From an uncultured Prochlorococcus sp. (GTDB taxonomy: Bacteria; Cyanobacteriota; Cyanobacteriia; PCC-6307; Cyanobiaceae): a DNA stretch of 64,000 nt. Under the pieces are notes generated by a model that was given only the letters and a program-made list of their open reading frames with translations, did no database searches and was not told the DNA's origin. The position numbers and the translations under genes were made by a program. Below are positions 4,682-59,668 of the stretch, one piece after another (positions within the stretch are counted from its first letter, which is position 1; each line of letters begins with the position of its first letter). The stretch lies in NCBI GenBank assembly GCA_902627335.1, contig CACOIV010000003.1, positions 1 through 64,000 of the forward strand, written 5' to 3'.

Positions 4682-5407
4682 TTACTTAACCAGATGATTC
4701 TCTAATGCATACCTTACAAGTTCAGTTCTGCTAGATGTACTTGTTTTTATAAATAACCTACTTACATATTTTTCCACATTTCTAATTGAAGTCTCTAATT
4801 TTCTTGCGATCTCTTTATTCATTAGGCCCTCAGCAACTAATTGTAAAACGCTAGCTTCTCGTGGAGTAAAAGTAGGAATATTTATTTCATTTTCTGGATT
4901 AGCAGAGCTATTGTGAGTGAGCATGGATCTTATTTCGGTAATTTGTTTAGCCATCTTACTAACGTCTGTATCAGCAAATCTGGCTGCCTCTTTCAATAAT
5001 CTTTCTTGTCTTTTAATTACATTCTTAACCCGAGCTGCTAATTCATCAGGATCAAATGGTTTGGATATATAGTCATCTACTCCTGCTAGATAACCTTGAG
5101 TTCTATCTAAAGTCATACCTTTTGCAGTAAGAAAAATTACAGGTGTACCACTTAAACGCTCATCTTCTCTTATTCTCTCTAGTAAAGAATAGCCATTGCA
5201 TCGGGGCATCATTATGTCACTGATTATTAAATCAGGAAAAAATTGTTGGGCTTTTTCCCATCCATCTTCTCCGTCTACTGCCACAGTAATTTCAAAACCT
5301 TCGTCTTCTAGAAATGTTTTTACTGCATTTCTTAATCCAGGTTCATCATCTACTAAAAGAATTTGGGGTTTTTTTAGAACCTCATTACTCTGATTTAATT
5401 CATTCAT
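4682..5407 (-). CDS. LuxR/NarL-type two-component response regulator (Ycf29-like)
   Basis: Receiver domain (LLVDDEPGLRNAV, DLIISDIMMP, KPFDPDEL) plus LuxR HTH (FTPREASVLQLVAEGLMNKEIARKL). Confidence 0.9.
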   Translation of the reverse strand: MNELNQSNEVLKKPQILLVDDEPGLRNAVKTFLEDEGFEITVAVDGEDGWEKAQQFFPDLIISDIMMPRCNGYSLLERIREDERLSGTPVIFLTAKGMTLDRTQGYLAGVDDYISKPFDPDELAARVKNVIKRQERLLKEAARFADTDVSKMAKQITEIRSMLTHNSSANPENEINIPTFTPREASVLQLVAEGLMNKEIARKLETSIRNVEKYVSRLFIKTSTSSRTELVRYALENHLVK

Positions 5408-5460: not shown

Positions 5461-6609
5461 ATGCTATCAAGTCCTATATTACTAGATTATCAATCATCGA
5501 CTCCTTGTCATCAAGAAGTAGTTGATGCGATGAAACCTTATTGGAATCAAATTTTTGGAAATCCTTCAAGCAAATCTAATTTAGCGGGGATATCCTCTAG
5601 TGCAGCTTTAGAAGTATCAAGAGAAAAAATAATACAAAAATTAAATCTCAAAAAACAAAAAATTATTTTTACAAGTGGGGCTACCGAGGCCAATAATTTA
5701 GCTTTACTTGGTTACGCAAGGGATTTTCATATGAGAACTGGTTCTTTTGGCAATATTATTACTTTAAAAACGGAACATCATGCTGTTCTTGAACCTATTA
5801 GGCAATTAGCAAAAGAAGGTTTCACAATTACTGAAATTAGTCCTGAGGAAAATGGTTTAATAAATCAAGAAATTCTTCTAAAGGCGATCAAAAAAGATAC
5901 ATTTTTAGTAAGTATTATGTTAGCTAATAATGAGATTGGGGTGATTCAGCCAGTAAATGATATTAATCAAATTTGCAAATCTCGAAATATTATTTTTCAT
6001 ACCGATGCAGCGCAATCTATAGGATATTTACCTTTGAATTTAATTAGCAGAACAGCAAATATGATTACTTTAAGTTCTCATAAAATTTATGGCCCAAAGG
6101 GAGTAGGATTATTAATTATTGATGAGGATATAAATTTAGAACCACTACTGTTTGGCGGTGGACAAGAATTTGGATTTAGACCTGGTACGATACCTTTGCC
6201 TTTAATAGTAGGTTTTGCAAAAGCTATAGAAATAGCTATCAATAATACTGAAAAAAATATAAGTAAATTATCCTTATTAAGAAATAATCTTTTAAAAGGG
6301 ATACTAAAAACTGGTAATAAAGTTCTTATAAATGGATCAATGAATCATAGACTTCCGCATAATTTAAATATTACATTCTTAGATTTAAGTGGTTCTAGGT
6401 TACATAAAGAGTTGAAATCTAAAATAATTTGTTCTAGCGGATCTGCGTGCAGTAATGGAATGCCGTCTCATGTATTGATGGCGCTTGGGAGATCTTTAAA
6501 GGAGTCTGAATCCTCATTGAGATTAAGTCTTGGAATACAAACTAGTCATGATGATATTAACAACGCAATATTTATTATTAACAATGTAGTACATGCTTTA
6601 AAAAAGTAG
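5461..6609 (+). CDS. Cysteine desulfurase (NifS/IscS family)
   Basis: TSGATEANNLALLG, HTDAAQSIG, SSHKIYGPKGVG, GSACSNG. Confidence 0.95.
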   Translation: MLSSPILLDYQSSTPCHQEVVDAMKPYWNQIFGNPSSKSNLAGISSSAALEVSREKIIQKLNLKKQKIIFTSGATEANNLALLGYARDFHMRTGSFGNIITLKTEHHAVLEPIRQLAKEGFTITEISPEENGLINQEILLKAIKKDTFLVSIMLANNEIGVIQPVNDINQICKSRNIIFHTDAAQSIGYLPLNLISRTANMITLSSHKIYGPKGVGLLIIDEDINLEPLLFGGGQEFGFRPGTIPLPLIVGFAKAIEIAINNTEKNISKLSLLRNNLLKGILKTGNKVLINGSMNHRLPHNLNITFLDLSGSRLHKELKSKIICSSGSACSNGMPSHVLMALGRSLKESESSLRLSLGIQTSHDDINNAIFIINNVVHALKK

Positions 6610-6610
6610 A

Positions 6611-7516
6611 CTATTTCAATTGTGCAATTCGCATTTTTGCACTTCTTGATCTTTTATTATTTTGAATTTCTATATCTTGTGGAACAATTGGTTTCTTCGT
6701 GAGATTCAATAACTTGTTATTAGTTTTGAAATTTTCTTTTACTTTTCTATCTTCAATTGAATGAAAGCTTATAATAGCAATGATTCCTTCAGGTAAAAGC
6801 CAATTTGGTGATTTTAATAATAATTTCTCCAGTGACTCAATTTCTTGGTTTACGCCAATCCTTAATGCCTGAAATGTTCTAGTTGCAGGATGAATTTTTT
6901 TATATCTTTGTCCTGGGGGAAAACAACCTCCAATTGCATATGCTAATTCTTTAGTACTTTTATATGATCCTTTTTCAAATAAATCTCTTTTAATTTTTCT
7001 TGCAATTTTTCTCGATAATCTTTCCTCACCATATTTGTATATTAAGTCTGCTAATTCTTTCTCATTCAAATTATTGATAAGTTCTTCGGCATTTATTGCT
7101 AAAGAAGGATCCATGCGCATATCTAGTGGTCCATCTTTTTGGAAACTAAATCCTCTTTCAGGTTGATCAATTTGGAAGCTATTAACTCCTAAATCTGCTA
7201 TTACGAAGGCAACTTTTTCTTTAGGTTCAAAATCTGCAAAATTTGTAGATTTAATGTTTATTCGATTTTTGAATTCGTTAAGTTTGATTGTTGCTGCTTG
7301 TCTTGCATATGGATCTTGGTCAATTCCAATTATTTTTAATAATGGAAATTTTTTTAATAATTCATAAGAATGTCCTCCTCCGCCTAATGTTGCATCAATT
7401 CCTATAAAGTTAGGAGATGATTTTTGAGGGCAATTATTGACAGCACTAATAATCTCCTCAGTCATCACTGAAGTATGATTGAATAATAATGGTGACTTAT
7501 TCGATTCAGTTTCCAT
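6611..7516 (-). CDS. rsmH: 16S rRNA m4C1402 methyltransferase
   Basis: HTSVMTEEII, IDATLGGGGHS, DLGVNSFQID, GPLDMRMD, FHSIEDRKVK. Confidence 0.97.
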   Translation of the reverse strand: METESNKSPLLFNHTSVMTEEIISAVNNCPQKSSPNFIGIDATLGGGGHSYELLKKFPLLKIIGIDQDPYARQAATIKLNEFKNRINIKSTNFADFEPKEKVAFVIADLGVNSFQIDQPERGFSFQKDGPLDMRMDPSLAINAEELINNLNEKELADLIYKYGEERLSRKIARKIKRDLFEKGSYKSTKELAYAIGGCFPPGQRYKKIHPATRTFQALRIGVNQEIESLEKLLLKSPNWLLPEGIIAIISFHSIEDRKVKENFKTNNKLLNLTKKPIVPQDIEIQNNKRSRSAKMRIAQLK

Positions 7517-55937: not shown

Positions 55938-56156
55938 TTAGTCATCATAAACTAGGCATTCTGGCTCATCGGGGTTTGCATCACAGAATAGTTCAAGGGC
56001 GTTAGGGTCGTGTTTGTCTTCAGGGTGATGATCTTTGTATTCTTCTAATTCTTTTAATTCTTCAGTCAAATGTCTAACCTTTGGAAGGTTACCTTCTGCT
56101 TTTGCAGATTCGATTTCCGATTGATCTTTTTTAATGTGTTCGTCAATGGATTTCAT
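55938..56156 (-). CDS. cp12: CP12-family Calvin cycle regulator
   Basis: MKSIDEHIKKDQSEIESAKAEG... ELFCDANPDEPECLVYDD C-terminal Cys-pair signature. Confidence 0.9.
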   Translation of the reverse strand: MKSIDEHIKKDQSEIESAKAEGNLPKVRHLTEELKELEEYKDHHPEDKHDPNALELFCDANPDEPECLVYDD

Positions 56157-56270: not shown

Positions 56271-57218
56271 CTAGTTATGTTTTATTATTTTTTCTAATGA
56301 ATTCTTTAAGGGGACAATTTGATTAGGGTTTAGGGGAAAAAGTGCTGTGTAGTAATCTTGCATCCATTCCTTTTCAAAACATGTTTCTCGAACTTCTTTT
56401 AAATTAAAAAATTTTGATCTCCACATTATAATATTCTTATATTCAGAAATATTTTTTTCCGTGCATTTAAATAGAATACTGTAAATTAATTCCCACCTAA
56501 TTAGCGTAGGAAATAAATAAATATCTGCAAGACTCAACTCTTGGCCAAGTAACCAGGGCCCATTTTCTTTAAGAATATCATCAACTTTATCAAGACTTGA
56601 AAATAAATTTTTGCTTGCTTTTTCATATGCACTTTGATTTCTCGCAAAGCCGCATTTGTATACCCCATCGTTTATTGAATTATGTATTAAGTCTAGTAAC
56701 TGTTCACTACCATCAATAATTCTAGTTTTTTTAGTATTTTGATCATCTCCAATTTTATTAAGGATTTTTACTATTTCACTACTTTCATTGGAAATGGGTT
56801 CAATTCTTTGATTTTTAAAACTTATTAGAATAGGTAAAGTAGGTCTTGAAATTATATTTAATTTAGATTTTGAGTAGACCTCACTTAAGGTTTTCATTCC
56901 AAAGAAATGTTCTTTAAAAATCCACTCCCCATCTTGATATCTAGGATTTAAAAAAATAATATTAATTGTTTTTGATAGATTTTTTAATCTATACATTAGA
57001 AAAGTTCGATGACACCAGGGACATGTTGATCCAATAAGTAAGTAAAGATTTTTGGTATTTTGTGAATTTACTCCTGATTTTCTATTCTCCTTTTTTATTC
57101 CTTGTGGCCGCTTGTAGTTACCATAAAAATCTGATGGGGCGAAGCCATTCATCAGTTTTATCCAATACCAGATCCAAAACTTTCTAGCAAAAATTATGAG
57201 AAATTTGTTTTTTTTCAT
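56271..57218 (-). CDS. Glutathione S-transferase family protein (Ecm4/YqjG-like)
   Basis: GSTCPWCHRTFLMYRLKNL, GPWLLGQELSLADIYLFPTLIRWE. Confidence 0.87.
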   Translation of the reverse strand: MKKNKFLIIFARKFWIWYWIKLMNGFAPSDFYGNYKRPQGIKKENRKSGVNSQNTKNLYLLIGSTCPWCHRTFLMYRLKNLSKTINIIFLNPRYQDGEWIFKEHFFGMKTLSEVYSKSKLNIISRPTLPILISFKNQRIEPISNESSEIVKILNKIGDDQNTKKTRIIDGSEQLLDLIHNSINDGVYKCGFARNQSAYEKASKNLFSSLDKVDDILKENGPWLLGQELSLADIYLFPTLIRWELIYSILFKCTEKNISEYKNIIMWRSKFFNLKEVRETCFEKEWMQDYYTALFPLNPNQIVPLKNSLEKIIKHN

Positions 57219-57241: not shown

Positions 57242-58132
57242 ATGCTTGACAAGAAATTATTAATTGTTTCGGGTACTCATGGGAATGAACTCAATCCTGT
57301 TATGGCTGTTAATAAATTTAGGAACTTAACTTTAGCCGGTAATAATAATTGCTTTGAGTTTATTTTAGGGAATCCTCTGGCTTACGAAAAGGGTTTGAGA
57401 TATCTCGATATAGATTTAAATAGATCTTTTGAGTTTAAAAAATCTTTATTAAACAAAGATCTTTATGAAGTTCAAAGAGCTGAACAAATAGTAAAAGAAT
57501 TTGGTCCAGAAAGCCCTAGTGGATGCCAAGTAGTATTTGATTTACACACTACTACCGCTTCAATGGGTACAAGTCTTGTCATGTATGGGAGAAGAAAAAA
57601 AGATTTCTATATAGCTGCAATCCTGCAAAATAAATTTGGATTACCTATTTATTTACATGAAAAAGATTCTCAACAAACCGGATTCTTAGTTGAAGCCTGG
57701 CCTTGTGGATTAGTTATAGAGATAGGACCAGTCGCTCAGAATCATCATGATCCAATAATTGTTGAAAGATTTTTAATTCTTTTAAAATACTTAGAAAATC
57801 TATATGACGGCATAAATAATAATAATTTACCTTTACCTGATGAAATGACTATTTATGTTCATCAGGGAAGTATAGATTATCCAAGGGATAAAGAGGGAAA
57901 TATCAACTCTTTAATTCATCCAGATAGAGTTATGCAAGATTGGGTTGAGATTAATAATGGTGATCCATTATTTCTTGATGAGTTTAATAAAGATATAAAT
58001 TATATTTCTAAAGATAAAACTTATCCTGTTTTTATTGGTGAAGCAGCTTATAAAGAGAAGAAAATCGCTATGAGTTTTACAAAAAAAGAAACAATTAAAT
58101 GTTCAAGAGAATGGATAAAAGATTTTATTTAA
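57242..58132 (+). CDS. Aspartoacylase/succinylglutamate desuccinylase family
   Basis: SGTHGNELNPV, DIDLNRSF, DLHTTTASMG, EIGPVAQ. Confidence 0.93.
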   Translation: MLDKKLLIVSGTHGNELNPVMAVNKFRNLTLAGNNNCFEFILGNPLAYEKGLRYLDIDLNRSFEFKKSLLNKDLYEVQRAEQIVKEFGPESPSGCQVVFDLHTTTASMGTSLVMYGRRKKDFYIAAILQNKFGLPIYLHEKDSQQTGFLVEAWPCGLVIEIGPVAQNHHDPIIVERFLILLKYLENLYDGINNNNLPLPDEMTIYVHQGSIDYPRDKEGNINSLIHPDRVMQDWVEINNGDPLFLDEFNKDINYISKDKTYPVFIGEAAYKEKKIAMSFTKKETIKCSREWIKDFI

Positions 58133-58271
58133 AAACTAATTTCTCATTAACTTTTTTAAAATCAGCGATTACAGATATTTATCTATTTGGAAAATTAATC
58201 TTTATTATAAGTTTAATTTATGTTAGTGATCAATATTCATAGGTGGAAGATCAGATAAAAATTATTGTTCC

Positions 58272-58382
58272 CTATACCCTCTGACTCCAGTAAATAGTAG
58301 CTCCGATTGCTTCTAATTCCAGTCTCCTACTTCTTGCTGAAGATAAAGGAACTACTTCCTTTGATCTCCTGCCATTAATCAA
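58272..58382 (-). CDS. Candidate unannotated small protein (about 36 aa)
   Basis: Minus-strand frame reads (L/M)INGRRSKEVVPLSSARSRRLELEAIGATIYWSQRV*; locally raised GC; below ORF-track length cutoff; start codon uncertain (TTG at 58382, frame open further upstream). Confidence 0.35.
   Translation of the reverse strand: MINGRRSKEVVPLSSARSRRLELEAIGATIYWSQRV
58341..58367. repeat. Strong inverted repeat AGAT-AAAGGAA-CTAC-TTCCTTT-g-ATCT
   Basis: 11 paired positions with one bulged base, inside the candidate small ORF. Confidence 0.7.
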
Positions 58383-58527
58383 AAACTCTAGTAAAACCAA
58401 TTTTGAGAGTAAAATATTAAGAAAATCTTAAATCATAAAGCCACTCTTTCTGTATAAATTAGTAAATCCTCTAATTTTTTATACAATTTTTTACACATTT
58501 TTCGTGATTTTGGTTTAAAGTTTTAGG

Positions 58528-58570
58528 AGCAGATTATGTCTGCTTTTATTTACACGCCTATTTAATAGGC
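58528..58570 (+). promoter_or_regulatory. Two consecutive perfect hairpins in psbA 5' region
   Basis: AGCAGA-TTATG-TCTGCT (58528-58544) and GCCTAT-TTA-ATAGGC (58556-58570), 16 nt before ATG. Confidence 0.65.
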
Positions 58571-58585
58571 ATACCTTACGAACTC

Positions 58586-59668
58586 ATGACAACTATTCAG
58601 CAGCAGCGTTCATCGCTGTTAAAGGGTTGGCCACAGTTCTGTGAGTGGGTAACATCAACTAACAACAGAATTTATGTTGGTTGGTTTGGAGTTTTAATGA
58701 TTCCATGCTTACTTGCAGCAGCGGCTTGCTTCATTGTTGCTTTTATCGCAGCACCACCAGTAGACATCGACGGAATCAGAGAGCCAGTTGCTGGTTCATT
58801 CCTATATGGAAACAACATCATTTCAGGTGCGGTTGTTCCTTCATCTAATGCTATTGGTCTTCACTTCTACCCAATCTGGGAAGCAGCGACTGTAGATGAG
58901 TGGCTATACAATGGTGGCCCTTACCAACTTGTAATTTTCCACTTCCTAATCGGTATCTCAGCATACATGGGAAGACAGTGGGAGCTTTCATACCGTTTAG
59001 GTATGCGTCCATGGATCTGTGTTGCATATTCTGCACCAGTTTCAGCAGCTTTCGCAGTATTCCTTGTATACCCATTCGGTCAAGGTTCATTCTCTGACGG
59101 AATGCCTCTAGGTATCTCTGGTACATTCAACTTCATGTTTGTATTCCAGGCTGAGCACAACATTCTTATGCACCCATTCCACATGGCTGGTGTTGCTGGA
59201 ATGTTCGGTGGATCATTATTCTCTGCAATGCATGGTTCATTGGTAACATCATCTCTAATTAGAGAAACAACTGGTCTTGAGTCACAAAACTATGGCTACA
59301 AGTTCGGTCAAGAAGAAGAAACATACAACATCGTTGCAGCTCATGGCTACTTCGGTCGTTTGATCTTCCAATATGCAAGTTTCAATAACAGCAGAAGTCT
59401 TCACTTCTTCCTAGCTGTATTCCCTGTTGTATGCGTATGGCTTACATCTATGGGTATTTGCACAATGGCATTTAACCTAAATGGTTTCAACTTCAACCAG
59501 TCAGTTGTTGACGCTAACGGTAAAATCGTTCCTACATGGGGTGATGTACTTAACCGTGCAAACTTAGGTATGGAAGTAATGCACGAGCGTAACGCTCACA
59601 ACTTCCCACTCGATTTAGCAGCTGCTGAGTCTACATCTGTAGCTCTTACAGCTCCTGCAATCGGCTAA
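58586..59668 (+). CDS. psbA: Photosystem II D1 protein
   Basis: Full D1: [40 protein letters not shown] ... [22 protein letters not shown]. Confidence 0.99.

Follow-up and report, generated by a model that had tools for sequence, protein, structure and literature searches.

A conserved 42-residue protein gene divergent from psbA in picocyanobacteria and its homologue beside a CP12-like gene in a cyanophage

Introduction

What is encoded in the gap upstream of psbA in Prochlorococcus? The question was raised by a window of 64,000 nucleotides from an uncultured Prochlorococcus sp. (assembly GCA_902627335.1, contig CACOIV010000003.1, positions 1 to 64,000), in which an island of higher GC content precedes psbA. 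The original prediction read the minus strand of this island as a tiny basic protein divergent from psbA, as a small RNA, or as both, and did not recognise the family.

Results

The predicted minus-strand peptide was present in the window exactly as given. The full open reading frame has a TTG start, a TAG stop and 42 codons, and its 42 aa product is MVLLEFLINGRRSKEVVPLSSARSRRLELEAIGATIYWSQRV (Table 1). The GC island was also recovered (0.38-0.43 in windows over 58260-58379 vs about 0.17-0.25 on the flanks), whereas the GC content at codon positions 1/2/3 was computed as 40/45/31% and not as the 42/58/30% claimed. The net charge of the protein was +3 in the window member and +1 in Synechococcus; its basic character is thus mild and not found everywhere.

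The family is in fact catalogued as NCBIfam NF058615 ('YWSERL motif small protein'), a model of 42 positions with a curated cut-off of 50 bits, which itself carries no function. The window protein matched this model with 75.3 bits over positions 1-42 of 42. Pfam gave no match for the protein, a search of PHROGs together with Pfam nothing convincing and a search of the PDB by sequence nothing, and the term 'YWSERL' was not found in the literature searched.

Of the 200 genomes examined from the genus, 148 contained clear homologues in the same frame, far more than chance would give. Over 143 loci, a set in which some genomes were counted twice as they were reached by two routes, the first codon was TTG in 130, GTG in 7 and ATG in 6, and internal stops were absent. 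Among the 110 distinct sequences the intended frame was open in every one and each of the five other frames in at most 19; the start position was common to all. The same sequences gave an entropy at codon positions 1/2/3 of 0.59/0.32/0.98 and a median pairwise dN/dS of 0.15, by which the gene is shown, at the level of the alignment, to be under purifying selection. Conservation, codon constraint, start-codon conservation and synteny all bear out the tiny protein divergent from psbA, and as judged from these comparisons the reading frame is almost certainly a protein gene. Transcript evidence for it was not found in the literature searched.

The alternative that the island is a structured or antisense RNA and gives rise to no protein started from a 'strong hairpin' at 58341-58367. 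A 7-bp stem does exist there (58345-58362, inside the ORF region), and its pairing across homologues was higher than in shuffled columns. The ORF as RNA, however, folded little better than shuffles (z = -1.2). Across homologues standard pairs were present in only 68% of cells, and five of the seven pairs failed in 6 to 13 of 23 sequences; a conserved, covarying structure as expected of a regulatory small RNA was thus not found. Rfam gave no match here. Together with the codon-type constraint and the conserved start codon, these results leave an RNA in place of the protein next to no probability, and an RNA gene was rejected; a small RNA in addition to the protein is likewise not supported.

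The gene is part of a block with the order CP12-GST-aspA-YWSERL-psbA, which is common to Prochlorococcus and marine Synechococcus. The GST gene is presumed to be glutathione-S-transferase-like from general knowledge, and aspA is taken to be aspartoacylase-like from general knowledge of the locus. Among the 15 loci at which a divergent psbA was not recorded, 13 ended at a contig edge, and the median distance to psbA was 188 nt. A (C/T)TTAAGATT block precedes the start codon by about 23-25 nt in both Prochlorococcus and Synechococcus. It could act as a -10 element, in which case the leader would be short; a transcript start near 58417 is predicted. In genome G571, presumably Synechococcus CC9605, residues 2-42 of the protein are encoded at 510327-510449 on the minus strand. 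As a regulon motif the upstream element was ruled out: in two Synechococcus genomes (G440, G478) the degenerate pattern AVWYTTAAGATTY was found only at the YWSERL gene.

Table 1. Features of the window discussed in the text.
Feature	Coordinates	Strand	Basis and remarks
YWSERL-family small protein gene	58272..58400	-	ORF, NF058615 match, frame and start kept in homologues
psbA (D1), divergent neighbour	58586..59668	+	ORF; divergent at 128/143 loci
Presumed aspartoacylase-like gene (aspA), convergent neighbour	57242..58132	+	ORF; kept at 132/143 loci
Presumed glutathione-S-transferase-like gene	56271..57218	- (as small gene)	ORF; identical order at every host locus compared
CP12 gene, part of the conserved block	55938..56156	-	PF02672, 65.3 bits; order the same in nearly all host loci compared
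Putative -10 element TAAGAT	58425..58430	-	Inside the conserved (C/T)TTAAGATT block, 24 nt before TTG

On the psbA side of the gap, the 5' leader of psbA (58529-58570, plus strand) can form two hairpins (z -3.4). At the same place Synechococcus relatives match Rfam PhotoRC-I (RF01716), and the stem sequences vary by lineage with pairing maintained, so the leader of the window looks like a diverged PhotoRC-I below the Rfam threshold. An upstream ORF of nine codons (MSAFIYTPI, 58536-58565, plus strand) lies inside the leader and is not conserved in most relatives. Further upstream of psbA, a direct repeat TATACAATTT/TTTACACATT at 58480-58499 (plus strand) was noted, which to our eye resembles an HLR1 light-regulatory site.

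In a class-wide sample, matches above the cut-off were obtained in 45 of 390 genomes, all within the window's own family, where 172 of 270 good genomes carry the gene. Weak matches in other cyanobacteria (E 0.003-0.01), of which six were examined, were judged to be chance local likeness; four of the six presumably resemble alpha/beta hydrolases and one RmuC.

Within its range the gene is lost several times, as inferred from gene content. Genome G015, which we take to be MED4, contains psbA and aspA and lacks the YWSERL gene; decayed remnants were found at the same place in G433 (presumably MIT9313) and G265, and broken copies between duplicated psbA genes in G012 and G021. Since psbA is intact where the gene is lost or decayed, the latter is dispensable for psbA function, and its repeated loss shows that it is not essential. 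Two of the best-studied strains presumably have no working copy, which may be the reason why the gene has not been studied. In genomes with several psbA copies, the place of the YWSERL gene beside one psbA is kept. Tandem psbA duplications were observed at L144/L165 (G012), L145/L166 (G021) and L064 (HNLC1). A second intact copy of the YWSERL gene, about 23 kb from the first, was present in L048 (G367) and G701 (genus g4), and that of G367 has no psbA within 1.5 kb.

By tblastn, an unannotated homologue was identified in Synechococcus phage S-CBS4 (cyanosiphovirus, HQ698895) at 4743-4880 on the minus strand. It scored 38 bits against NF058615 (E 1.2e-9), below the 50-bit cut-off. Host and phage profiles matched over 40 of 42 columns (E 7.5e-10), and the structure predicted for the phage protein shows the fold of the host protein (pLDDT 93.4). 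On profile and predicted fold, the S-CBS4 protein is a YWSERL homologue outside the curated family; the family was already catalogued, and its phage homologue is new here. The gene before it, gp008, passed the CP12 model PF02672 with 29.1 bits (gathering cut-off 22.7), carries the CP12 C-terminal Cys pair and ends LCRQSPEAPECRLYDV, and the profiles of host CP12 and gp008 matched with E 4.9e-10 over the C-terminal end; a KR-domain model also weakly passed its cut-off over residues 5-64. The small gene and gp008 overlap, the stop codon of the latter sharing nucleotides with the start codon of the former (ATGA or GTGA in S-CBS4 relatives).

The same arrangement was found in about ten related viral contigs, next to a terminase gene whose product is 92-100% identical to that of S-CBS4, and the phage homologue was seen in this one phage group only. 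Its copies showed pS values of 0.07-0.66 and pN values of 0.01-0.11, by which they are under purifying selection; one copy (L239/L255) has a stop near the C-terminus. Behind the CP12-like/YWSERL pair, a tRNA and a glutamine-II riboswitch were detected in most contigs scanned, and in S-CBS4 (L031) this riboswitch (6425-6615) lies directly before the 39-aa gp007. A different situation was encountered in IMG/VR contigs with a host-like copy beside phage genes, in which this copy was not taken for a phage gene, as host and phage sequence appear to be joined at psbA. In L061, L062 and L063, cyanophage-like genes are joined at psbA to host aspA/YWSERL; these are probably assembly joins through near-identical psbA, recombination being possible.

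AlphaFold2 (27 sequences) predicted, with high confidence, a beta-beta-alpha-beta structure for the YWSERL protein (pLDDT 95.3). With Foldseek no match at E<=0.001 was obtained.

Discussion

The Prochlorococcus genome is among the smallest of any phototroph, so a tiny gene that has stayed next to psbA in Prochlorococcus and Synechococcus alike likely does something. The best explanation as a whole, to which we give slightly less than even weight, is that a soluble 42-residue protein would be made from its own promoter diverging from psbA, would serve as a small conditional regulator and would have been co-opted by phages along with CP12. Such a regulator would bind a partner protein, probably via the conserved C-terminal YWSER strand, and might tune photosynthetic or carbon metabolism by acting with CP12; phages could then produce the homologue along with a CP12-like protein to divert the metabolism of the host. 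A small regulator of photosynthesis or carbon metabolism is favoured by the association with CP12, which is found twice, as a neighbouring gene in the host chromosome and as an overlapping gene in the phage. Expression of functional CP12 by cyanophages inside host cells has been reported (PMC7760959). Adjacency to a CP12-like gene in a phage can be chance. A regulatory role of the protein is a tentative assignment that falls clearly short of even weight. Similar or slightly lower weight goes to the specific proposal that it is an unrecognised picocyanobacterial regulator of photosynthesis or carbon metabolism, whose homologue some cyanophages express with a CP12-like protein from a translationally coupled operon as an unrecognised auxiliary pair.

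A local regulator of psbA, acting on D1 synthesis or on the divergent promoter region that the two genes share, would account for the divergent adjacency at a nearly constant distance and for the place kept beside one psbA in genomes with several copies. We regard it as unlikely, since the gene is lost or decayed in several lineages with psbA intact, the phage copy adjoins a CP12-like gene and not psbA, and in one of the two genomes with a second copy this copy stands away from psbA.

The predicted fold points in two other directions, both of which we consider improbable and to the same degree. Linker domains of the CpcD/ApcC type make up many of the PDB matches from Foldseek, with TM of about 0.65-0.82 when taken over the query, and the YWSERL and CpcD profiles align in register, VP...GA against VP...GG, as would be expected of a minimal CpcD-like phycobilisome linker domain binding an antenna or photosystem complex. 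These Foldseek matches have E values of only 0.3-3, however, the profile-profile comparison gave P 0.008 with 1 of 60 column shuffles scoring higher, and PF01383 did not match at E<=1 in 21 YWSERL members. In addition, unrelated hydrolases show a similar local pattern, and the tested Prochlorococcus genomes keep the gene without a detectable CpcD domain. The fold is suggestive of CpcD linker homology, while the sequence tests give it no convincing support. A small RNA-polymerase-binding or nucleic-acid-binding regulator of the phage type would fit the weak resemblance of the fold to those of RNA polymerase epsilon (RpoY/YkzG) and T7 Gp2, and uncharacterised short proteins of phages share the predicted fold, TM reaching 0.94 in Foldseek; against this, TM to polymerase binders is only about 0.4-0.65 (E 0.3-3) and the net charge is small.

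Under the favoured reading of a conditional metabolic regulator, the coupling of the phage version to CP12, which is known to switch carbon flow in the host, provides a concrete and testable guess at the role. The CP12-like/YWSERL pair would be a metabolic gene pair missed by phage annotation, and a 42-aa protein gene beside psbA in many ocean picocyanobacteria had been overlooked.

Compared with NF058615 (cyano_YWSERL), the window protein is alike in its full-length match above the cut-off and in taxon range. It differs from the norm of the family by F at the nearly invariant W6 and by its C-terminal YWSQRV, in which Y, W, S and R are kept and E and L of YWSERL are replaced; YWSERI and YWSERV are common endings among accepted members. 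With CpcD-like linkers (PF01383; ApcC, CpcD) it shares a similar predicted topology, but no convincing sequence or profile similarity. CP12 (PF02672), a Calvin cycle regulator that is also a cyanophage auxiliary gene, is likewise a small protein; it is a conserved neighbour in the host and an overlapping partner in the phage, but the two sequences are unrelated and the YWSERL protein gives no CP12 match.
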